A DNA stretch of 64,000 bases, taken from contig JAAXIF010000098.1 in the NCBI GenBank assembly GCA_012270485.1, forward strand, positions 142,909-206,908, in the 5' to 3' direction. The stretch is from Sphingobacteriales bacterium (lineage in GTDB: Bacteria > Bacteroidota > Bacteroidia > Chitinophagales > Chitinophagaceae). Numbering within the stretch: position 1 is the first letter of the stretch; the number at the start of each line of letters is the position of its first letter. This document shows, one piece after another, positions 27,865 to 39,687 of the stretch. A model generated the notes under the pieces. That model was not told the origin of the DNA and did no database searches. It saw only the letters and a program-made list of their open reading frames with translations. Both the position numbers and the translations under genes were made by a program.

Positions 27865-28512
27865 ATGATCCTATCACTACATAATGTTGTACCTACCCCT
27901 CTGAAAGACAAAGTGCTGCAGCAAGGTTCTGATGTATGGAATCGTGAGGTTCGTTTTTCTGCTGGGCAATGCACAAAAATCAAAGCTCCCAGTGGTACCG
28001 GAAAAACTACATTGATCCATTCTTTATACAAATTGCGCGAAGATTATAGTGGTATAATAGAATGGGATGGCATGAGCTTACAACAATTACCTGCTGAACA
28101 ATTGGCGCAATACAGACAAGAAAAAATCAGTATTATTTTCCAGGATCTGCGTTTATTTCCCAACCTAAGTTCCTTTGAAAACATAGAACTGAAAAGGGTT
28201 TTACAAAAACCATATTACGATCAGGAAAAAATTTTTAGCATGGCAACGGAATTAGGTGTTCAACATATTCTACACCAAAAAGCCGGTATTTGCAGCTATG
28301 GAGAACAGCAAAGAGTTGCTATTATCAGAGCCCTGATTCATCCATTTTCCATGTTGGTGATGGATGAGCCCTTTAGTCATTTAGATCAGGCAAATACAGC
28401 AAAAGCTGCTGCGCTGATCATGAGAGAATGTAAAGACAGAAATGCAGGTTTTATCATTACTGATCTTGATGATGATCATCATTTTGCATACGATCAAATA
28501 TTGAATTTATAA
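27865..28512 (+). CDS. ABC transporter ATP-binding protein, LolD-like
   Basis: 215 residues, one nucleotide-binding domain. Walker A is PSGTGKTT (42-49), the Q-loop is IIFQDLRLF, and Walker B is MLVMDEPFSHLD with its D-loop. The signature motif reads CSYGEQQRV in place of the usual LSGGQQQRV: the last Gly-Glu/Gln-Gln part is kept but the first glycine is replaced by tyrosine. The switch histidine after Walker B is not obvious (TDLDDDHHF). The length and partner (FtsX-like permease, 10 nt downstream) fit the LolD/MacB class, which moves lipoproteins or peptides or works in cell-wall control. The substrate is unknown. Confidence 0.88.
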   Translation: MILSLHNVVPTPLKDKVLQQGSDVWNREVRFSAGQCTKIKAPSGTGKTTLIHSLYKLREDYSGIIEWDGMSLQQLPAEQLAQYRQEKISIIFQDLRLFPNLSSFENIELKRVLQKPYYDQEKIFSMATELGVQHILHQKAGICSYGEQQRVAIIRALIHPFSMLVMDEPFSHLDQANTAKAAALIMRECKDRNAGFIITDLDDDHHFAYDQILNL

Positions 28513-28522
28513 GTAGACAACC

Positions 28523-29710
28523 ATGAATGATCTGAATATCCTTCTAAAAAAATTAATCAAAACAGCTACGGGCAGAGCTAGGTATGCTATGGCCATCATG
28601 GGGTTATCTGTTGCCTTGTTATTGATACTGGCAGCGGTACAGATACAGGTGAACTACAATGAACTTTTACAAGGAAAACAGAACAAAGACAGTATAGCCA
28701 ATTTTTTAGTTGTCAATAAAATACTGACCGATCAGAATATAGGAAAAGCGGTACTCACACAAGAAGAAATTGATGATATCAAAGCACAGCCATTTACAGA
28801 AGCAGTAGGTGTTTTGGCAACCAGTCGCTTCAAAGCTTCTATTCAAAGCAGCAGTGATGTTTTTCCATTTTATACAGACATTGCTTTTGAAAGTGTTCCC
28901 GATGCGTTTTTAGATGTAAACACAAAAGAATGGAATTGGAATGAAAACAGTGCTTATGTACCCATCATTGTGCCGGGTATGTTTCTAGACATTTATAATT
29001 TTCAATTCTCATTATCACAAGGCTTACCACAATTAACACGGGAAATAGTGAAAATGATTTTTTTCAATGTAAATGTGTATGCTGTTGATGGTACAACACG
29101 TGTATTCAGAGGCAAAGTAGTAGGTTTCAGCGACAGGGTATCCTCTTTATTAATTCCACAATCATTCATGGATCATGCCAATGCATTGTATGGAAAAAAT
29201 ACAGGTAGTGCTCCATCCAGAATCATCATTAGAACCAAGGATCCCGGACATCCGGATTTGATCAGCTATTTGAAGAAAAAACAATTGACAACAGATCAAG
29301 ATAAAACCAGGTTTAGTAAGTACAGACAAATTGTAGAAATAGTGGTGAATATTACCGGTGTAACAGGATTGCTCATGTTTTTATTTGCGATGTTGATCTT
29401 CTCCTTGTTCATACAACTCACCATCAGCTCTTGCAGAGAAGAAATAAAACTATTGATTAGTTTAGGTGCTTCGCCATCACAATTGCGCTCATTTCTAGCA
29501 CGTCAATTTTTCCCATCCAATATTTGGATTGTGCTGTGTTCGTTATGTGTTATATCTGTTGCACAGTATGCATTGGCCCTATTTTTACAACAACAATCTG
29601 CTTACATTTCCCCGTTCATATCTTCTATCACAATAAGCATTTCTGTTTTAGTATTATTAATCATTTATATACTTAATCGAAAGAGTATTCATACTAATAT
29701 TTCAAAATAA
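28523..29710 (+). CDS. FtsX-like ABC transporter permease
   Basis: 395 residues. One membrane helix near the N-terminus (AMAIMGLSVALLLILAAVQI) is followed by a large extracytoplasmic domain (about 45-270) and three C-terminal helices (VVNITGVTGLLMFLFAMLIF, NIWIVLCSLCVISVAQYAL, ITISISVLVLLIIYIL). This 1+3 pattern is that of FtsX/MacB/LolCE permeases. The cytoplasmic loop ISSCREEIKLLISLGASPSQ contains the helix that usually contacts the ATPase. It works with the ATPase coded 10 nt upstream. The following 238 bp (29711-29948) are AT-rich without a gene. Confidence 0.85.
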   Translation: MNDLNILLKKLIKTATGRARYAMAIMGLSVALLLILAAVQIQVNYNELLQGKQNKDSIANFLVVNKILTDQNIGKAVLTQEEIDDIKAQPFTEAVGVLATSRFKASIQSSSDVFPFYTDIAFESVPDAFLDVNTKEWNWNENSAYVPIIVPGMFLDIYNFQFSLSQGLPQLTREIVKMIFFNVNVYAVDGTTRVFRGKVVGFSDRVSSLLIPQSFMDHANALYGKNTGSAPSRIIIRTKDPGHPDLISYLKKKQLTTDQDKTRFSKYRQIVEIVVNITGVTGLLMFLFAMLIFSLFIQLTISSCREEIKLLISLGASPSQLRSFLARQFFPSNIWIVLCSLCVISVAQYALALFLQQQSAYISPFISSITISISVLVLLIIYILNRKSIHTNISK

Positions 29711-30407: not shown

Positions 30408-30445
30408 TAGAATAATTACTTAAAATAGTTGATTCAAAAATTAGA

Positions 30446-30474
30446 TAAACCCCTTCCATGTTGGAAGGGGTTTA
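30446..30474 (+). terminator. Hairpin terminator after the small lipoprotein gene
   Basis: Perfect 13-nt arms (30446-30458 and 30462-30474) with a 3-nt loop; the GC-rich stem sits on flanking A/T runs. The next gene begins 17 nt later, so that gene's transcription start must lie inside or before this hairpin. Confidence 0.85.
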
Positions 30475-30491
30475 TTCCTTAATTTAAGTGC

Positions 30492-31190
30492 ATGTCCGAA
30501 CATTTCAGACAATATCTACACCTATATCTAGAAGTCCTTAGTCTACTGATTAGTTTACTCTTTTTAAAGGATCTGAAAAGAAATAAAGCGTTTATATATT
30601 TTGTACCATTTCTGATAATAACTGTTGCAGTTGAATGTATTGCTAAACTATTGACAAATACTGAAAACCCAAATGAATATCGATCAGTCAGATATATGAT
30701 TTTTAATGTTTTTACGACTTGCGAATTCATTTTTTATTCTATCCTATTTTTGATTTACCTCTCCAACAAAACACTTAGAAAAATAATTACCATATTAATT
30801 CCTGTTTATATCATTTCAGTGGCAATCAATATTGGCTATATTCAGGGTACTGACAAGTTTCATCGTTATACATTTTTGTTAGGTGCCTTTCTAATGGTTG
30901 TATACAGTTGCTTCTTTTTATATGAATCCATTTTACCTGATTCAATCAATATCAAATTATCAGAGCACCCTTTCTTTTGGGTAGCAATTGGTTTGCTAAT
31001 TTTTTATTTAGGTTCTGTTATTATTAATGCACTTTTTGAATATCTTACAAGCGCAGCCTTAGGGAAGCAGGGAACTGAGATATATTCTTACATTAATAAT
31101 GGTTTGAACGTAGTATTGTACGGATCATTTATTATTTCATTTATTCTATGCCGAAAGAACAGGAAGACATCCTCATCACCATCGTTATAG
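30492..31190 (+). CDS. Seven-helix membrane protein, putative sensor partner of the histidine kinase
   Basis: 232 residues with seven hydrophobic segments at roughly 11-25, 33-54, 68-90, 97-116, 125-147, 159-184 and 202-220, and only short loops. The sixth segment region reads PFFWVAIGLLIFYLGSV. No known domain is recognised, but small seven-helix proteins of this look often precede histidine kinase/LuxR-regulator pairs in Chitinophagaceae-like genomes (from memory, not checked). The 3' end overlaps the kinase gene by 43 bp in another frame, so the two are translationally linked. The kinase has only one membrane helix and no sensor domain. I therefore infer that this protein supplies the sensing part. 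Confidence 0.75.
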   Translation: MSEHFRQYLHLYLEVLSLLISLLFLKDLKRNKAFIYFVPFLIITVAVECIAKLLTNTENPNEYRSVRYMIFNVFTTCEFIFYSILFLIYLSNKTLRKIITILIPVYIISVAINIGYIQGTDKFHRYTFLLGAFLMVVYSCFFLYESILPDSINIKLSEHPFFWVAIGLLIFYLGSVIINALFEYLTSAALGKQGTEIYSYINNGLNVVLYGSFIISFILCRKNRKTSSSPSL

Positions 31191-31927
31191 CATCGGTATT
31201 TCTGGTTTTAATCGGATTTTTCTTGTTGCTGATCGTATTTGTTTTTTTACGCAGACAAAGAAAATTTCAACTGGAAAGGGATGAGATGAAAAACAAATTT
31301 GAACAGACCATTCTGAAATCACAACTAGAGATCCAGGAACAAACTTTTAGCCATATCAGTAGAGAAATCCACGATAATATTGGACAAGTATTAAGTCTGG
31401 TCAGACTGAACTTAAGTACCTTTACGAATATTGAAGAGCACGAGAAACTGGAACATACCGATGAATTGTTAGGGAAGGCAATCAAAGATTTACGCGATCT
31501 GAGTCATAGTTTACAAACGAATAGGATACAGGATATAGGAATTGTTGAGTCTATCAGACAACTCTTGAATAACTTACAGAAGAGTGGTCGATATAAAACA
31601 GATCTTTCAGTAGCAGAGAATTTTACGGGTATTGATAAGAATACGGACCTCATCATGTTTAGAATGGTTCAGGAAATTATCAATAATATCATGAAACATG
31701 CCAAGGCTGACCAGATATCTGTAAAAATCGAGGGCAACGAAAATGAAGTTCAGCTGATCATAAAAGATAATGGGATTGGATTTGACATGGAAAAATTTAA
31801 AACTGCCGGACCAGGTATCGGTTTACAGAACATATTTAACAGGGCAAAAATGATTCATGCCACTGTTGATATAAAAAGTGAGCCGGGAAACGGAACAGCC
31901 ATTATATTGCAGGCGAAATCGAAATAA
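31148..31927 (+). CDS. Sensor histidine kinase, NarL/DesK-type (HisKA_3 and HATPase)
   Basis: 259 residues. One membrane helix (about 8-34), a short coiled region, then the HisKA_3 dimerisation helix with HISREIHDNIGQVLSLVRL, in which His75 (motif HDN) is the predicted phospho-acceptor. The HATPase domain has an N-box-like MVQEIINNIMKHAKA and the G1 box DNGIGFD. It autophosphorylates and passes phosphate to the LuxR-type regulator coded 7 nt downstream. There is no extracellular or PAS domain, so the signal must reach it through a partner, probably the overlapping seven-helix protein. Confidence 0.93.
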   Translation: MPKEQEDILITIVIASVFLVLIGFFLLLIVFVFLRRQRKFQLERDEMKNKFEQTILKSQLEIQEQTFSHISREIHDNIGQVLSLVRLNLSTFTNIEEHEKLEHTDELLGKAIKDLRDLSHSLQTNRIQDIGIVESIRQLLNNLQKSGRYKTDLSVAENFTGIDKNTDLIMFRMVQEIINNIMKHAKADQISVKIEGNENEVQLIIKDNGIGFDMEKFKTAGPGIGLQNIFNRAKMIHATVDIKSEPGNGTAIILQAKSK

Positions 31928-31934
31928 CCTTAGT

Positions 31935-32585
31935 ATGACCTTTGTAGCACTTGTGGACGATCATGAATTACTTCGTAGCGGTCTCGCTTCAATGATCAAT
32001 TCATTTGAAGGCTTCAAAGTAATTATGGAAGCCGGTAACGGTAAGGAATTCATAGAGGCGTTGAAAAACAATAAGCCACCGGCCATTGTTTTACTGGATA
32101 TCAATATGCCATTAATGGATGGCTTTGAAACCGCTGAATGGATCAAAGCCAATATGCCAGAAACCAGGGTATTGGTATTAAGTATGTTGGAAAATGATAT
32201 TGCCATTATTCGTATGCTGAAAAATGGTGCCCGTGGCTATTTACTCAAAGACAGTAAACCCAAAGTCTTTAAACAAGCCCTCGAAAACATACGCGATACA
32301 GGTTATTTCATCAATGAATTAGTGAGTGATAAACTCATGCACTATATCAGCAATGAAGACTCCTTCCTCGGTGATGGATCTCCACTCAGCAGCCTAACAG
32401 AAAATGAAACCATTTTCTTACAATGGATCTGCTCCGATAAAACCTATAAAGAGATTGCTGAAGAAATGCATATCAGTCCACGTACCGTTGATACCTATCG
32501 CGATAATCTCTTTAAGAAATTAGACATCAAAACACGGGTTGGACTAGCCATTTTTGCTATCAAGCATGGTATTGTAAGCGTATAA
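31935..32585 (+). CDS. LuxR/NarL-family response regulator
   Basis: 216 residues from the ATG at 31935. The receiver domain has the acidic pair in ALVDDHELL, phosphorylated Asp55 in IVLLDINMPLMDG, and the conserved lysine in YLLKDSKPK. The C-terminal LuxR-type HTH is recognised by LTENETIFLQWICSDKTYKE and ISPRTVDTYRDNLFKKLDIK. It should be phosphorylated by the neighbouring kinase and bind DNA as a dimer. The ORF extends to 31878 within the kinase gene but the domain begins at 31935. Its stop is 3 nt from the stop of the convergent peptide exporter gene. Confidence 0.95.
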   Translation: MTFVALVDDHELLRSGLASMINSFEGFKVIMEAGNGKEFIEALKNNKPPAIVLLDINMPLMDGFETAEWIKANMPETRVLVLSMLENDIAIIRMLKNGARGYLLKDSKPKVFKQALENIRDTGYFINELVSDKLMHYISNEDSFLGDGSPLSSLTENETIFLQWICSDKTYKEIAEEMHISPRTVDTYRDNLFKKLDIKTRVGLAIFAIKHGIVSV

Positions 32586-32588
32586 GCG

Positions 32589-34736
32589 TTAACGCTGATT
32601 CCACATTGTAGCATACAGGCTTTTCTTTTGTATCAGGTATTGATGTGAACCCCTCTCTATTAGTTTACCCTCTTGTAATACCAATATTTCGTCACAGAAC
32701 CTAAGTGTTGTTAACCTATGTGCTACAAGAATGATTGTTATACCCTTTCGACGATGGTATTGCAAACATTCCTGCACTACCGATTCACTGATGGTATCTA
32801 ATGAAGCCGTGGCTTCATCTAATAATAATATAGATGGTTGACGGTACAACGCACGCACAATACCAATTTTCTGTTTTTGTCCGCCAGATAAGTTTGTTCC
32901 CTGCTCTTGTAATACGGTATGATACCCATCCGGTAAGCTGCGAATGAAATGATCTAATCCTACTTGCTGACAAAGTTTTATTACGCTATCCATATCAACA
33001 GCTGTATTCAAACAGATATTTTCAAGAATAGTACCTGAGAGTATATCCGTCTCTTGTGGGACTATGGCGATTTTCTGTCTTAATTCGTTAAGACTTACAT
33101 CATTGATATCCGTGTCACCAATGCGTATTTGTCCACTTTGTAATGGATATAAACGTAATAATAAATGTAACAAAGTAGATTTTCCTGACCCACTTTCACC
33201 AGCTATCCCAATACAAGCAGCCGAGTTGATCTGAAAAGACAAATCAGTAAAGACTATTTGCCTGCTACCATATCTAAAACTGACTTTATCAAATACAATG
33301 GCACCTGCTGTAAAAGAGCATTGATAACGACCGATCAGAGTAGCTTTTTCAGTTTCTAATTCCATGATCTCAAAAAGACGATCTGATGCTATCATGGCTT
33401 CCTGAAAGCTTTTGGTACTTCCTATTAATACCAAAACAGGACCGGTAAAATACCCGATAATACTATAAAAAGACAGCAAAGTACCGGGTGTAAGTGTTCG
33501 CTCAATCACTAATATTGAGCCTATCCACAAAATGAAGAGAGTAAAAAGTTTTGTCGAAAATTCTGCTATAGAGGAAACTGCAATATTCCTGGTACCGGTA
33601 GCATACAGGGTACGCAATAAACCGACAAGCTGCATCTCATTTTTTTCCATCATTACATATTCCAGTCCAAAACGTTTGATAGTAGCTGATGCTTGTAAAG
33701 TACCTACTAGTTCTGTTTCCATGGCAGCACTTCTTTCCATCAATTTTCTTTGCCAATACTTGTTGATTTTATTGCTCAGAAAATAGAGTGCCAAATAAAG
33801 CGGTAATAATACGAGCATCCATAAAGCCAACTTACTGCTATAAAAAAACATCAATAAAAAAGAACAGAGCAGGATCAAACTATTCACTACTACCTGCATG
33901 ATTGTATCACTGATAAAATTCCTGATCATAACAGCATCATTAATTCGACTCAATACTTCACCCGTTCGCATAGTATCAAAGAAAACCTGTGGGAGTTGTA
34001 AGAGGTGACGCAGATAATGGGTAATGAGTGCTGCATCCATTCTTTGCCCCACCTGCAATCCAAGTACCGCCTTAAACGTACCTGTATATTGTTGAACACA
34101 CAACAATAAAATCATCATCATACTGATCAGATTCAAAAATCCCAGATCTCCATCCACAAATATGGTATCCACTAGTTTCTGAATATAGATACTGACTGAA
34201 AGACCCAAAATAGTATATACCAAGGCCCCCATAAACCCTTGTAACAATAAGGATCGATTGGAGTATAGTAAATGAAATAGCCTTTGTCTTGTACTGATGA
34301 TGGCCGTAGAACCGGATACTGTTATTGAAGGTTCCAGTAAAAGAAGTACACCGGTCCAAATTTTGGCAAAAGCATCCGGATTTGTCTTCACTAGTGTACC
34401 CGTTCCCGGATCCATATACACGAGCTGATGTTTGTTGATTCGATAGAGTACTACAAAATGTTGCAACCCATTTTCCAATAATACATGTGCAATAGAAGGA
34501 AGTGGAATCTGACGAATCACTTCAGAATTTGCACGTACCGCCTTTGCTTGAAAACCCATTTTCTGCGCAGCCTCTACCATACCTAACATACTGGTACCTC
34601 GTTTATCTGTTCCGGCAATTTGTCTGATTTTACTAACCGAAAAACGATACCCATAACTACCGGCAATGGATACCAAACAGGCGGCTCCACAATCGGTAAC
34701 ATCTCGTTGCTTCACACAAACCATCTTCCTCTTCAT
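32589..34736 (-). CDS. C39-peptidase-containing ABC exporter for double-glycine-leader peptides
   Basis: 715 residues, three parts in the usual order. (1) A C39 cysteine peptidase: QRDVTDCGAACL with catalytic Cys16, His93 in LQHFVVLY and Asp109 in YMDPGTG; it cuts leaders after Gly-Gly. (2) A six-helix membrane domain, about 160-440. (3) An ATPase with Walker A GESGSGKST, signature LSGGQKQKIG and Walker B ILLLDEAT. This is the PCAT/bacteriocin-exporter type, which processes and exports small peptides. Two candidate substrates with double-glycine leaders are coded upstream at 36443 and 36667. Its start overlaps the stop of the HlyD gene by four bases (ATGA). Confidence 0.95.
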   Translation of the reverse strand: MKRKMVCVKQRDVTDCGAACLVSIAGSYGYRFSVSKIRQIAGTDKRGTSMLGMVEAAQKMGFQAKAVRANSEVIRQIPLPSIAHVLLENGLQHFVVLYRINKHQLVYMDPGTGTLVKTNPDAFAKIWTGVLLLLEPSITVSGSTAIISTRQRLFHLLYSNRSLLLQGFMGALVYTILGLSVSIYIQKLVDTIFVDGDLGFLNLISMMMILLLCVQQYTGTFKAVLGLQVGQRMDAALITHYLRHLLQLPQVFFDTMRTGEVLSRINDAVMIRNFISDTIMQVVVNSLILLCSFLLMFFYSSKLALWMLVLLPLYLALYFLSNKINKYWQRKLMERSAAMETELVGTLQASATIKRFGLEYVMMEKNEMQLVGLLRTLYATGTRNIAVSSIAEFSTKLFTLFILWIGSILVIERTLTPGTLLSFYSIIGYFTGPVLVLIGSTKSFQEAMIASDRLFEIMELETEKATLIGRYQCSFTAGAIVFDKVSFRYGSRQIVFTDLSFQINSAACIGIAGESGSGKSTLLHLLLRLYPLQSGQIRIGDTDINDVSLNELRQKIAIVPQETDILSGTILENICLNTAVDMDSVIKLCQQVGLDHFIRSLPDGYHTVLQEQGTNLSGGQKQKIGIVRALYRQPSILLLDEATASLDTISESVVQECLQYHRRKGITIILVAHRLTTLRFCDEILVLQEGKLIERGSHQYLIQKKSLYATMWNQR

Positions 34737-35914
34737 GCGGCGGATTGACTAAGTGTGGCAGGATTGAACCAATCGTATAATTGCTGATAAAGCAGTTGCC
34801 AACAACTTTTTCTAGCTAAAAGGAATCTTGTCTCCAATAAAAGTCCACGACCTAATGCATACGAAAACCCATTTTGTAACTGAACCCTTGTTTGGTTCAA
34901 ACTACATTTAACCCTAAACATGGGCTTATTATTAACAAGCGTATAATCCTCTGCTATGAAAATAATTTTTCCCTGTAATGGCGTAGACATCTGATTGCGG
35001 ATTTCGGGAATTGAATAGGTAATGCTTTGTCCATGATAAATGGTTACTCTATTTGAAGGAGATATCCAACATTCAACAATCAGATCTTGTGCGGGAGAAA
35101 TAGATAAAAGTTCTCCGGAAGGAATAACAGCAGTGCCTACATACAAGGGTTCTTGCATCAATACGGTACCCGTTATGGGGGCTTTAACGATATAAGACTG
35201 TGCGTTCGATAGCAGATGACTATTTTCCGTTTTGTATTCCACTAACAATTTTTGTTGCTCAATCAATTCATGTTGCCATTGGCTGATTTGTTTACTAATC
35301 TGTAACTGAAAAACCGCCGATGCTTGTAGTAACTGAAACCTAATATCAGAAAACTCATTAGGTGCTATAACCTTCTCCCGAAGTAACGGATCATACAGTA
35401 GTATATCTTTCTGTAATTTTTTACTAAGTATATCTTTCTCTTGTAATTGATCATAAAAATGGAGGAATTGAGAACGATAAACTGCCGTTTGCAAACGGTT
35501 AGGGATGGTTGTGTCTTTCCACACATCCAGTTGAGTAAGCACTAGTAGATCATTTATCAGTTTTTTACAGTTGTTTATTTTTTGTGCGATATATTCTTTT
35601 TGTGCTCTATAATTCAATTGCTGAAACAAGATGAGGGTATCGCCTTTTTTAACCACACTTCCATCTTTACAATGAACAGACTGAATCGTAGCGCTGATCA
35701 AGCTTCGAACAACAGTTCGCTCCTGAAAGGGTCGGATGATTCCTTCAGTACGGGTGATGACGTTGACATAACAAAAAGGAAGCATGGCAAGTCCGATCAA
35801 TATGATCAGGATCAGTGATATATAAAAGAGTCTGGCATGGGCTGAAAATCCTGCGAGATAGAATTGGATGCTCCTATTGGCTTCCAGTAATCGCTCCTTT
35901 TCCTTATCCATCAA
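34733..35914 (-). CDS. HlyD-family membrane-fusion (adaptor) protein of the peptide exporter
   Basis: 393 residues. A cytoplasmic N-terminus and one membrane helix (LFYISLILIILIGLAMLPFC) are followed by a lipoyl-like strand set (GIIRPFQERTVVRSLISATI, then KKGDTLILF), a long coiled-coil hairpin (about 110-260) and the second half of the barrel domain (VKAPITGTVLMQEPLYVG). It links the inner-membrane C39 exporter to the outer membrane, probably to a TolC-like protein coded elsewhere. It overlaps the exporter gene by 4 bp and the CPBP gene by 11 bp, so the three are one translation-coupled unit. Confidence 0.92.
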   Translation of the reverse strand: MMDKEKERLLEANRSIQFYLAGFSAHARLFYISLILIILIGLAMLPFCYVNVITRTEGIIRPFQERTVVRSLISATIQSVHCKDGSVVKKGDTLILFQQLNYRAQKEYIAQKINNCKKLINDLLVLTQLDVWKDTTIPNRLQTAVYRSQFLHFYDQLQEKDILSKKLQKDILLYDPLLREKVIAPNEFSDIRFQLLQASAVFQLQISKQISQWQHELIEQQKLLVEYKTENSHLLSNAQSYIVKAPITGTVLMQEPLYVGTAVIPSGELLSISPAQDLIVECWISPSNRVTIYHGQSITYSIPEIRNQMSTPLQGKIIFIAEDYTLVNNKPMFRVKCSLNQTRVQLQNGFSYALGRGLLLETRFLLARKSCWQLLYQQLYDWFNPATLSQSAA

Positions 35915-36371
35915 TAAAATAATTGAAGATTAACGCAGTCAAGTTATGAAGCATGTGCACCATCGATGTCCATAAAAAGCCATTCCATTTTCGAATCATA
36001 CAAACAAAATAAACTGACGTATATACAGTTCCGGTAATCAATGTTTTCAACATATAAGGAACTGAATAATGATGTAGAACTGAAAACACAACAATACTTA
36101 TTAAGATACCCGGCCAATATTTTTTTGTCCACTTATACCCATATTCCATGATTGTATATTGAACCAGCCAAGTTTCGAGAAATGGCGCCACAATTATTGA
36201 AGCAATAAAATATATATTATCCGGTAGTTGATTCGGGTTAGCATCTTGCTCCGGGAATAATACGTACCCAAATAAGACCGAAACAAAAAAATTAATAAAA
36301 TACGCCCCAATGACCAACTTAAAAATTGTGAGCCTTTCGATGAGCTTTGATAGACGATTACTAATTGACAT
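35904..36371 (-). CDS. CPBP-family membrane protein, possible peptide immunity protein
   Basis: 155 residues with about four membrane helices. Three CPBP (Abi) motifs are visible but the first is altered: APFLETWLVQ (Glu66, Thr67, Gln71) stands where the family has EExxxR. Motif 2 is FSVLH (Phe96, His100) and motif 3 is HMLHN (His139, Asn143). CPBP proteins include membrane proteases and the immunity proteins of several class II bacteriocins (PlnI/PlnL-type). Its place between precursor peptides and exporter fits immunity or a processing role. The loss of the second Glu and the Arg leaves protease activity uncertain. It is preceded by a hairpin (36403-36433) and overlaps the HlyD gene by 11 bp. 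Confidence 0.82.
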   Translation of the reverse strand: MSISNRLSKLIERLTIFKLVIGAYFINFFVSVLFGYVLFPEQDANPNQLPDNIYFIASIIVAPFLETWLVQYTIMEYGYKWTKKYWPGILISIVVFSVLHHYSVPYMLKTLITGTVYTSVYFVCMIRKWNGFLWTSMVHMLHNLTALIFNYFIDG

Positions 36372-36402
36372 ACTAAAATAAGTTTTGAGAATGTATTGTA
36401 AT

Positions 36403-36433
36403 GAATGACCTCACTTGAAACATGAGGTCATTC
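36403..36433 (-). terminator. Intra-cluster hairpin between peptide and export genes
   Basis: Perfect 11-nt arms (36403-36413 and 36423-36433) with a 9-nt loop, starting 9 nt after the stop of the second peptide gene. No clear U run follows on the minus strand, so it may be a partial terminator or an mRNA-stabilising end that lets the peptide genes be expressed above the exporter genes. Confidence 0.6.
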
Positions 36434-36442
36434 TCATATCGA

Positions 36443-36640
36443 TTATTTTTTCAAACTTGGTGGTAATGAAGCCTGATACTCCCCTGCAGTTTTTGTAAAC
36501 TCATAAAAGCTTCGAAACGTTACACCAACTTTGTAGAATAAATCTCCCCAAAAGCCACCACCCTCAATTGTTTTCAACTCTTTTGAAGACAGTGACTGAC
36601 ATTCAAATGAATGCCTACTAGATTGATTTTTGGTTTTCAT
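36443..36640 (-). CDS. Double-glycine-leader peptide precursor (peptide 1)
   Basis: 65 residues from the ATG at 36640 (an ATG at 36646 would add two). The leader of 28 residues ends SLSSKELKTIEGG, the classic LSxxEL..I.GG pattern recognised by C39 peptidases. The predicted mature peptide has 37 residues, begins GFWGDLFYKVGV, is rich in Phe/Tyr/Trp, and ends in SLPPSLKK. A third glycine after the GG leaves the exact cut uncertain by one residue. There is no cysteine after the leader, so no lanthionine or disulfide chemistry is expected. It is the second of two such genes and lies just before the CPBP/HlyD/exporter genes. Bacteriocin or signalling peptide; which one cannot be told. Confidence 0.85.
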   Translation of the reverse strand: MKTKNQSSRHSFECQSLSSKELKTIEGGGFWGDLFYKVGVTFRSFYEFTKTAGEYQASLPPSLKK

Positions 36641-36666
36641 GACCATTTGTTTTAAAGGTTTAATAA

Positions 36667-36852
36667 TCATTTATTATCAGCGAAATGCCACCCTCTACTG
36701 AACTCGCTTTTGATCTCGTCCCAGCTTTTTATGGCATCCATAATAAGACCACTCCATCCAAACCTTTTCATCCATGATGGAATTGTTCCTCCTTCTATAC
36801 TGATCAGCTCCTGATCTGATAGGGGCTCCAGTTTTAATGTTTGATGATTCAT
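36667..36852 (-). CDS. Double-glycine-leader peptide precursor (peptide 2)
   Basis: 61 residues from the ATG at 36852. The 22-residue leader ends PLSDQELISIEGG, again the C39 recognition pattern. The predicted mature peptide has 39 residues, begins TIPSWMKRFGWSG and has an amphipathic look with Trp, Phe and Lys, ending HFADNK; there is no cysteine. The frame is open to 36927, but homology to leaders starts at 36852. The stop is 26 bp before the ATG of peptide 1. The two mature sequences are not obviously similar to each other, while the leaders are, as expected for a pair that shares an exporter. Confidence 0.85.
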   Translation of the reverse strand: MNHQTLKLEPLSDQELISIEGGTIPSWMKRFGWSGLIMDAIKSWDEIKSEFSRGWHFADNK

Positions 36853-36925
36853 ACAAACAGTTTTAGTTTTTAATGTCGCTTCTTCTGTACCAGCGCGGGA
36901 TACAAGGCATACCGACAATACTCCC

Positions 36926-36942
36926 ATTCATGGCCTATGAAT
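36926..36942. promoter_or_regulatory. Candidate operator upstream of the peptide genes
   Basis: Perfect dyad ATTCAT-GGCCT-ATGAAT, 74 bp before the start of peptide 2 and 55 bp after the HTH gene. No TAnnTTTG box was found in this 144-bp gap. Binding by the neighbouring HTH protein or the LuxR-type regulator is speculative. Confidence 0.3.
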
Positions 36943-37353: not shown

Positions 37354-39687
37354 ATGACGATGAAACATCGCTTGTATACTTGTAGAACTTTACTGCTAAT
37401 AGCGATATCGCTGATGGGCTATTTACTCATGAGTCATAACATCTGTGCACAAGTACCTCCGATTGGACAATGGCGTGAACACTTGAACTATCAGCAAACC
37501 ATTCAGGTAGTGAAAGGATCACAGTTGTATTGCGCTACAACCAAAGCTTTGTTTTCCATTGATGATAAGAATGAACTCACCCGTTATTCCAAAGTAACGG
37601 GACTCAATGATATAGGCATACGCTGTATAGGATGGGATGCCGGTACCAATCAATTAGTGGTTGCGTATAACAACAGCAATCTCGATCTACTCAAAGGCAG
37701 TATTGTTCATAATATTCGTGATATTGCCAATAGCGCCATTGCCGGCGATAAATCGATCCAACAGATTTTTTGTAATAATGGTCTGGCTTATTTGGCTAGC
37801 GGACTTGGTATCATTGTTACTGATCTCAATCGAAGAGAAATCAAGGATACTTGGATCATTGGTAATAATGGTAACCAAGTAAAAGTGAACGGATTTACCT
37901 TACACAATAATTTTTTTTACGCAGCTACGGAAGAGGGACTTAAAACAGCGAGCACTACTGTCAACAATCCCGCTAATTTCAGCAACTGGACTTTGGTAAG
38001 TGGTACCCATCAACTTCCGACAGGCAGTATTAAAAATGTAATCGTTGCCAATAACAATGTGATTGTTCAAAAAGGAGATTCTTTGTTCATTCAAAACGGA
38101 AGCAACTGGCAGCTCTTATACCATGATAGCAACTGGCTCATTGTTTCGATCACTGCTGCCGATAATCAGTTAACTGTTTGTCAACGTACAAACACCGGGG
38201 CTGCACGGGTTTTGTTATTAAATACCAATGGAACCATCACTAGAACCATCGGTGCTAGTGGTATCATCTCATTGCCATTATCTGCTATTGTAGACAACGC
38301 ACAAATCTGGGTGGCCGATCGCTTTGGTGGTCTATCAAGAACCGATAATACCACAGATCGATTCATTCCCAACGGACCTCCCGGTGTTGCTGTTGGTGAA
38401 TTAGCTTCTAATGGTAATATAACAGTTGCTACAGCCGGTAGTGTGAATGATGCCTGGAACTATTTGTTTAATAGAGATGGGTTTTATGTATTGAAAGACA
38501 ATGCATGGAGTTCCAGAGGTTTTTTCAATACGCCGATACTGGATTCTGTTTTAGATTTTATCACAGTAGCCATTGATCCACGTGATCAAGCGATTTGGGC
38601 AGGTAGTTATGGAGGTGGATTGGTTCGTTTTGCCAATGATCAATTCAATATTTTTAAACAATTCAATAGTAGCTTAAGAGCTGCTATTGGCGATCCGGGC
38701 AGTACACGTGTGAGTGGATTGACTTTTGATAGTAAAGAACAACTATGGGTAGCCAATTATGGGGCACCACAAAATCTAAGCGTACGCAAGCGAGATAATA
38801 ACTGGAGGTCTTTCTCCATTCCTTTTACTCACAGCGAAAATGCCATCGCCCAACTGATTACAGATGACCTTGATCAGATTTGGGCGATCAGTCCGAAAGG
38901 CAATGGCTTGTTTTGTTTCAATCCCGGAACCGATATTGATAATCTGGCTGATGACAGATGGAAGTATTACAGACAAGGAAGCGGCAATGGTAACCTACCT
39001 TCTTCTAATGTATTCAGCATTGTGAAAGACAGAGATGGCGCTGTATGGGTAGGAACAGACAGAGGTATTGGCATCATTCGTTGTCCGGAATTAGCATTTT
39101 CCGCTGCAGGATGTGAAGCCATTCAACCCATTGTACAACAAGATCGTTTTGCAGGATTATTATTCCGCGATGAAGTGGTTCAATGCATGGCAGTGGATGG
39201 CGCTAACCGAAAATGGGTGGGTACTCGAAATGGTTTATGGCTGCTTTCTTCCAACGGAGAAAAAATAGTGTATCGATTTACGGCAGAGAACAGTCCGCTA
39301 TTCAGTAACGATGTTCGAAAATTAACCATCGATCCTGTTACCGGTGAACTGTTTATAGCTACTTCTGAAGGACTTTGTAGTTTTAGAAGTACAGCAACTA
39401 CACCTGCTGAAACACAAAATAAAGTATTGGTATTTCCCAATCCGGTTCCTCCCGGTTTCAATGGCACGGTTGCTATTAGAGGGTTAGTAGATAAGGCGTT
39501 GGTAAAAATTACAGAACTGAATGGAAGACTGGTTTATCAAACCCGCTCCTTAGGCGGACAAGCCGTTTGGGATGGAAGAAATTATCTGGGTACCAAAGTA
39601 GCCAGTGGTGTGTATCTGGTACTGGTAAGAGATGATTCTGGAGAAGAACGTATCGCAACTAAGATTGTGATGACAGCAAACAGATAA
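37354..39687 (+). CDS. porZ: Type IX secretion system protein PorZ
   Basis: 777 residues (775 from Met3 at 37360), matching the length I recall for Porphyromonas gingivalis PorZ. After the signal peptide (ending near HNICAQ) the protein starts VPPIGQWREHLNYQQTIQVV, then LYCATTKALFSID, the PorZ opening. It is built from two seven-bladed propeller-like regions with two-component-regulator-type blades (DGAVWVGTDRGIGIIR, NRKWVGTRNGLWLLSS). A type A T9SS sorting domain forms the end (VFPNPVPPGFNGTVAIRG, then ASGVYLVLV). PorZ sits on the cell surface and delivers anionic LPS to the sortase complex. A TAACTTTA box (37343-37350) lies 3 nt before the first ATG. This protein, the PorP/SprF pairs and the adhesins show an active T9SS. 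Confidence 0.9.
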   Translation: MTMKHRLYTCRTLLLIAISLMGYLLMSHNICAQVPPIGQWREHLNYQQTIQVVKGSQLYCATTKALFSIDDKNELTRYSKVTGLNDIGIRCIGWDAGTNQLVVAYNNSNLDLLKGSIVHNIRDIANSAIAGDKSIQQIFCNNGLAYLASGLGIIVTDLNRREIKDTWIIGNNGNQVKVNGFTLHNNFFYAATEEGLKTASTTVNNPANFSNWTLVSGTHQLPTGSIKNVIVANNNVIVQKGDSLFIQNGSNWQLLYHDSNWLIVSITAADNQLTVCQRTNTGAARVLLLNTNGTITRTIGASGIISLPLSAIVDNAQIWVADRFGGLSRTDNTTDRFIPNGPPGVAVGELASNGNITVATAGSVNDAWNYLFNRDGFYVLKDNAWSSRGFFNTPILDSVLDFITVAIDPRDQAIWAGSYGGGLVRFANDQFNIFKQFNSSLRAAIGDPGSTRVSGLTFDSKEQLWVANYGAPQNLSVRKRDNNWRSFSIPFTHSENAIAQLITDDLDQIWAISPKGNGLFCFNPGTDIDNLADDRWKYYRQGSGNGNLPSSNVFSIVKDRDGAVWVGTDRGIGIIRCPELAFSAAGCEAIQPIVQQDRFAGLLFRDEVVQCMAVDGANRKWVGTRNGLWLLSSNGEKIVYRFTAENSPLFSNDVRKLTIDPVTGELFIATSEGLCSFRSTATTPAETQNKVLVFPNPVPPGFNGTVAIRGLVDKALVKITELNGRLVYQTRSLGGQAVWDGRNYLGTKVASGVYLVLVRDDSGEERIATKIVMTANR

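Follow-up and report, generated by a model that had tools for sequence, protein, structure and literature searches.

Our analysis of a 64,000-nucleotide stretch of a Sphingobacteriales genome (hereafter the window) identifies a four-gene signalling unit that recurs across many Bacteroidota and consists of a small partner protein (X), a seven-helix membrane protein (7TM), a histidine kinase and a response regulator. The unit is a widespread variant of the two-component system that is unnamed in the literature we searched; the portions of that literature open to us, a scope that leaves aside most subscription papers and preprints, contain no description of an X-7TM-kinase-regulator arrangement. 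On balance, we think it probable that the unit operates as a split sensor, in which the 7TM protein reads X and drives the kinase. The features of the window that bear on this proposal are collected in Table 1.

Table 1. Features of the signalling unit and its surroundings in the window.
Feature	Position	Strand	Basis or remark
ABC ATPase and permease pair	27865-29710		
X, small lipoprotein-like partner, 152 aa	29949..30407	+	homologue upstream of 7TM in orthologous loci
Terminator- or attenuator-like hairpin with a stem of 15 pairs, separating X from 7TM	30444..30476	+	
7TM, receptor-like protein, 232 aa, separate chain	30492..31190	+	ORF, AlphaFold2
Histidine kinase HisKA_3/HATPase_c, 259 aa, one TM helix, without input domain	31148..31927	+	Pfam
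NarL/LuxR-type response regulator, REC + GerE	31935..32585; longest ORF from GTG 31878	+	Pfam
Exporter cassette: C39 ABC, HlyD, CPBP-type membrane protein, two small ORFs with double-glycine-like leaders	32589-36927		
PorZ of the type IX secretion system	37354-39687		NF052228, 555 bits against a cut-off of 260

In their domain content, the kinase and regulator form a two-component system of the HisKA_3/NarL type. The HisKA_3 (residues 69-124) and HATPase_c (170-255) domains of the kinase both exceed their Pfam cut-offs, as do the REC and GerE domains of the regulator. Pfam found no input domain in the kinase, whose single hydrophobic stretch is N-terminal, and this bears out the initial annotation, which had described a kinase with one helix and no sensor domain. 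Its reading of the gene boundaries was also correct: the membrane protein ORF overlaps the kinase ORF by 43 bp (31148-31190), and 3 nt (32586-32588) separate the regulator stop from that of the convergent peptide exporter ORF, which lies on the minus strand and ends at 32589. Absent from that annotation was X, the fourth gene of the unit. Judging from the sequence, the ATG at 31935, 7 nt past the kinase stop, is a likelier start for the regulator than the GTG at 31878. The scan for hairpins like the one between X and 7TM gave 5 sites, where shuffled sequence would lead one to expect 4.8, and thus only its stem length is unusual. This genome contains two further X-7TM-kinase-regulator units (G000:C104; L251, 4087-5060, and L252, 4596-5572), whose X proteins are short, lack a signal and end in CPPxC.

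That receptor and kinase sit on separate chains, as had been proposed at the outset, is supported by the conserved adjacency and overlap of the two genes and by the sensor-less kinase. A profile search of 40 family genomes, picked by hand, mostly near-complete, and including genomes with and without matches in a single-sequence search, returned 77 7TM places in 32 genomes; three places were not fetched and two had no ORF, leaving 72 mapped genes, from which two more at contig ends were dropped for the X scan described below, leaving 70. A HisKA_3 kinase starts within -150 to 250 nt of the 7TM stop in 70 of the 72 mapped genes and overlaps the 7TM gene in 48, the two exceptions being the leading gene of a 7TM tandem in L172 and, in L212, an additional 7TM gene situated after a complete unit. 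Among 65 7TM ORFs from 60 loci that were chosen for their likeness to the window 7TM, the kinase starts within 200 nt in 58 and overlaps in 51. The two ORFs also overlap in all 20 further loci, which were picked among high-scoring matches of a Bacteroidia census; two of these loci belong to this genome, and the remaining 18 represent 17 other families. Tandem 7TM genes with one common kinase occur in four loci (L071, L076, L081 and L172), and in L199, L205 and L212 a complete unit has another 7TM gene after its regulator.

Relatives of the 7TM protein are common well beyond these loci. A single-sequence search found them in 139 of 244 family genomes; the Bacteroidia census, in which scoring covered the 8 top candidates of each genome, placed the family in 118 of 346 genomes and 70 of 185 genera; and a phylum-wide draw recovered it in 64 of 296 genomes, 8 of the 64 lying outside the class Bacteroidia. 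Wherever loci from these two surveys were examined for one, a kinase adjoined 7TM. The AlphaFold2 model of the window protein, built with 71 sequences, has seven helical spans (mean pLDDT 91.2, pTM 0.86). Searches against Pfam, NCBIfam and PDB sequences gave no relative above cut-off or with a convincing E-value, and 26 7TM proteins compared with Pfam yielded sub-threshold matches only. Across 71 relatives, lysine plus arginine counts are higher on the inner segments (2.87, 2.04, 1.61 and 3.25) than on the outer ones (0.11, 1.31, 0.48 and 0.90), which places the N terminus outside and the C terminus inside. Compared with PDB structures, the model is closest to GPCRs and some rhodopsins, a resemblance of the seven-helix fold that comes without sequence similarity and without a G protein. 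The top VIA score (Z 12.4, rmsd 4.0, 216 residues aligned, 7xp6_R) falls in a range where the typical best for helical models extends up to about 14 and may, for a helical bundle, reflect only a common arrangement; the best Foldseek match had an E-value of 0.019, and none fell below 0.001. Microbial rhodopsins carry their retinal lysine in the middle of helix 7. The two lysines of helix 7 in the 7TM protein (residues 191-222), K192 and K222, lie at its two ends, so that by this criterion it is no rhodopsin.

X, encoded directly upstream of 7TM, is small and fast-changing. In the window protein, Cys 23 follows a hydrophobic stretch, the core covers about residues 55-125, and the chain terminates in LNHGGLVP. 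The core approximates to F-helix-(x)GxRhYhGhY...TVhhV; at the C-terminal end the window protein has N-x-G-x-x-P, whereas many other X have CPPxC. Comparison of the window X, other X and a set of 28 X with Pfam and NCBIfam produced sub-threshold matches only. Of the sub-threshold names obtained for X or 7TM, DUF485, DUF4006, DUF4397, DUF7382, DUF7139, LHC, YabQ and LolB1 were dropped as chance matches, as was a Shiga toxin B identity for one X, for which two models gave about 16 bits against cut-offs above 200. The structural model of X is weak (mean pLDDT 69.1, pTM 0.52), and with it Foldseek found no match at an E-value of 0.001, the best VIA result being Z 4.5 (rmsd 2.9, 61 residues aligned); no solved sequence relative had a convincing E-value. 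A comparison with defence systems gave no match for X, 7TM or the kinase and one for the regulator, at an E-value of 0.0093.

The linkage of X to 7TM is strong, if not absolute. In 44 orthologous loci (L091-L134), which come from near relatives labelled Sediminibacterium, the order permease, X, 7TM, kinase and regulator is kept as far as the contigs reach, and a homologue of X precedes 7TM in 42, both misses being loci that start at a contig end. The ABC ATPase and permease pair lies upstream of X wherever the orthologous contigs extend there. At the level of the family, searching the 40 genomes with a profile built on 20 X yielded 17 places, all 17 just upstream of a 7TM gene as read from the coordinates, three of these places being rows of the profile itself. 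One X model had been built on the same likeness-chosen loci in which X was counted. Another, which started from only 13 X proteins, all of them from other families, and was then iterated, detected X upstream of 50 of the 70 family 7TM genes against 3 of 981 control ORFs; the three control matches (L185, L197 and L230) each overlap or just precede a 7TM start. The 20 loci without a profile match comprise some second 7TMs, some with an X-like gene visible by eye and others with none. X was also found upstream in 19 of the 20 further loci, partly by eye, three of them reaching an E-value of 0.01 with the family X model.

Across 52 genomes of the class (34 with a known 7TM and 18 without a match, some of them contributing rows to the X profile), 39 of 49 X places lie upstream of a 7TM gene. 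The ten without a detected 7TM downstream include L278, with a divergent second X, and L274 and L275, where X stands alone. Also among them are L272 (3360-4995) and L273 (3099-4742), in which X and a divergent 7TM-like protein are followed by a membrane protein of 237-242 aa in the kinase's place, that of L272 having no Pfam match. In L277 (3369-5834), three tandem X domains precede a bestrophin-family protein, and no 7TM was seen.

In one locus, L271, X and 7TM are fused. A single ORF of 516 aa comprises a signal-like start (recognized by eye), an X domain at residues 166-292 that ends in LCPPHC, and a 7TM domain at 307-510; the kinase and regulator genes come after it. Between the end of X and the first transmembrane helix there is no ATG, GTG or TTG, so the loss of a stop codon ahead of a functional start does not by itself account for the fusion. 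Given the outside location of the 7TM N terminus, the X part of the fused protein would be outside too. L271 is the single case of fusion, a second candidate in L130 having been rejected because its ORF spans N-masked bases.

Because X is linked to 7TM and in one case fused to it, the N terminus of 7TM faces outward and no other input domain is present, we infer that 7TM is the sensor of the unit and X what it reads. The 7TM protein, with its N terminus out and C terminus in, would serve as the kinase's sensor on a separate chain. Since gene order and overlap are conserved and the kinase has a single transmembrane helix, 7TM would directly contact that helix in the membrane, as sensory rhodopsin does its transducer. 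X would be the cognate partner read by 7TM, an input and not an output of the unit, either as a ligand or as a clamp that is released when X meets an outside stimulus. Control would run from there to the kinase, which would set the phosphorylation of the NarL-type regulator and, through it, the expression of presumptive target genes. A comparable division of labour is seen in sensory rhodopsin II and HtrII, in which, according to the portions of the descriptions available, a seven-helix receptor and a helix-bearing transducer also occupy separate chains; the unit differs in that 7TM has no retinal lysine in helix 7, the kinase itself is the partner, and no sequence relation was found. Sensor-less kinases are hard to pair with a stimulus, and here the missing sensor would be a separate seven-helix protein. 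X then becomes a candidate ligand for every unit, amenable to purification and testing, and the fused L271 protein offers a single-chain version for structural work. If 7TM is indeed activated by X, the unit would be a bacterial receptor arrangement parallel to GPCRs, with a histidine kinase replacing the G protein.

A different possibility, which we regard as open to serious consideration but not as probable, is that 7TM senses a small molecule, a lipid or the state of the envelope, and that X, instead of being a ligand, is made as part of the regulon's output or as an auxiliary protein from the same operon. Known systems lend this reading some weight, as two of those with a kinase of this type work through an accessory membrane protein (LiaFSR; PMC3543457, in the part available). 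The LiaFSR-LiaX system of Firmicutes is also the closest arrangement that we found, as far as the accessible parts of its descriptions go: it resembles the unit in combining an accessory membrane protein, a kinase and a regulator (PMC10269926, PMC3543457), and in enterococci the surface protein LiaX is proposed to act on LiaF and LiaS, restraining them (PMC10269926). The components differ, however. The LiaS model NF052531 scores 90.2 bits with the window kinase, far under its cut-off of 450; the LiaF domain (PF09922) has no Pfam match in the window 7TM or in 26 7TM proteins; and LiaX, in the excerpted account, is a large protein of two domains whose gene belongs to another operon (PMC10269926), whereas X is small and lies just upstream of 7TM. 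The same reading is favoured by the many X without an export signal, by the long hairpin that parts the window X from the rest of the unit and by the fact that X and 7TM do not always co-vary. The L271 fusion and the rarity of X away from 7TM, on the other hand, fit a physical partner better than an output.

The sequences of X raise a further question, and the main difficulty for the split-sensor proposal, that of the side of the membrane on which it acts. No hydrophobic N-terminal stretch was found in 31 of 50 family X by a crude test, and outside the family the usual X has about 100-130 aa and, by eye, no hydrophobic N terminus. Many family X may therefore stay in the cytoplasm, which is the wrong side for a ligand of the outer face, and X could be a cytoplasmic modulator, either of the kinase or of 7TM from its inner face, its lipoprotein forms being derived. 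We consider this unlikely, since the X domain of L271 follows a signal-like segment and precedes the first helix of an N-out protein, and since 44 of 46 genus-group X have either a lipobox (39) or, by a crude test, a hydrophobic start (5 more); of the remaining two, one is a fragment at a contig end and the other is borderline.

Comparison of the orthologous loci indicates that the four genes do not share one history. Mean pairwise identity over 38 complete loci is 0.39 for X, 0.57 for 7TM, 0.58 for the kinase and 0.70 for the regulator. Distances correlate at 0.87 between kinase and regulator, at 0.46 between X and 7TM, at 0.37 between X and kinase and at only 0.32 between 7TM and kinase, so that 7TM has evolved along a separate course. 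L104 and L031 illustrate this point, being 95.3% identical in the permease, 98.9% in the kinase, 99.5% in the regulator and 93.4% in PorZ, as against 63.8% in 7TM and 85.0% in X; their DNA identity drops within the second half of X, is no more than 39-77% across 7TM and is back at 96% where the kinase starts. The 7TM ORF of L031 (8690-9359) has a frameshift near its start and is otherwise open. Similar dips are present in L095/L122 and L091/L131, and none in L106/L112 or L126/L129. Over 72 close pairs, X is less conserved than the kinase in 70 and 7TM in 55; 7TM falls below PorZ in only 39 of 67 pairs and, in 28 of 48, below the permease. Some pairs have 7TM as their most conserved gene, and in L099/L125 it is more conserved than the kinase. 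The comparison with PorZ and the permease weakens the idea of a general hypervariability of X and 7TM, which we dropped. What the sequences indicate is that 7TM has been exchanged in some lineages, without a uniform excess of change; a pattern suggestive of joint exchange of signal and receptor is confined to certain close pairs, where it chiefly concerns 7TM.

These exchanges bear on the earlier suggestion of an Agr-type circuit, of which one part stands, namely receptor and kinase on separate chains, and another does not, namely a double-glycine peptide as the partner, the variable partner being X. The regulator AgrA is of the LytTR type, and in Agr systems an AgrB-like peptidase is encoded beside the precursor. 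The regulator of the unit is instead of the GerE type, and Pfam gave no match to an AgrB-like peptidase in any of ten ORFs between 29949 and 37230. Unlike in Agr, the receptor is off the kinase chain, and X is a folded protein, whereas the Agr signal is a cyclic peptide precursor. A possible likeness lies in the exchange of signal and receptor genes around a common regulator: in the part of the account available, allele-specific signal and receptor genes of staphylococcal Agr are exchangeable and the regulator is shared (agrBDC versus agrA; PMC8768832). X could be a self-made protein signal and 7TM a GPCR-like receptor on its own chain, together forming a protein-based circuit for self- or kin-recognition that is spread over Bacteroidota. 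Each genome would then have several units of different tuning, and strains would exchange receptor alleles but keep kinase and regulator. We offer this broader version of the split-sensor proposal as speculative and rather doubtful.

The peptide exporter is an occasional neighbour of the unit and not part of it. The initial annotation had suggested that the 7TM-kinase pair senses the double-glycine peptides of the neighbouring C39 system, and had proposed co-occurrence across genomes as a check. The exporter itself is well defined, its C39, ABC_membrane and ABC_tran domains each scoring above the Pfam cut-off, and the smaller peptide scores 22.9 bits with the model of the pheromone BlpC, a weak match given the cut-off of 70. 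It adjoins the unit in the window, L031, L092 and L104, and in a tree of kinase and regulator these four carriers fall in one clade of 7 loci (support 100/97). The same clade, however, contains L091, L109 and L131, which have no exporter and intact units, L091 being the nearest relative of the window, and the distribution of the exporter within it needs at least three gains or losses. Among the orthologous loci with more than 2.3 kb past the regulator, only 2 of 35 (L092 and L104) have the exporter; no full-length exporter-like ORF was found in 67 loci of the 40 family genomes, where flanks measured roughly 4-8 kb and were in some cases truncated by the end of the contig, and the two further units of this genome lack such a neighbour as well. 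Inspection by eye for a DNA motif upstream of both X and the peptide genes gave nothing convincing. The unit thus occurs mainly without the peptide cluster, and sensing of the exported peptide, unsupported by these counts, is very improbable as its function. Within the clade of 7, a local and secondary coupling of unit and exporter may exist. In the window, the cassette is flanked by the regulator on one side and by a small HTH-like gene on the other; PorZ lies beyond the unit in most of the orthologous loci that extend far enough.
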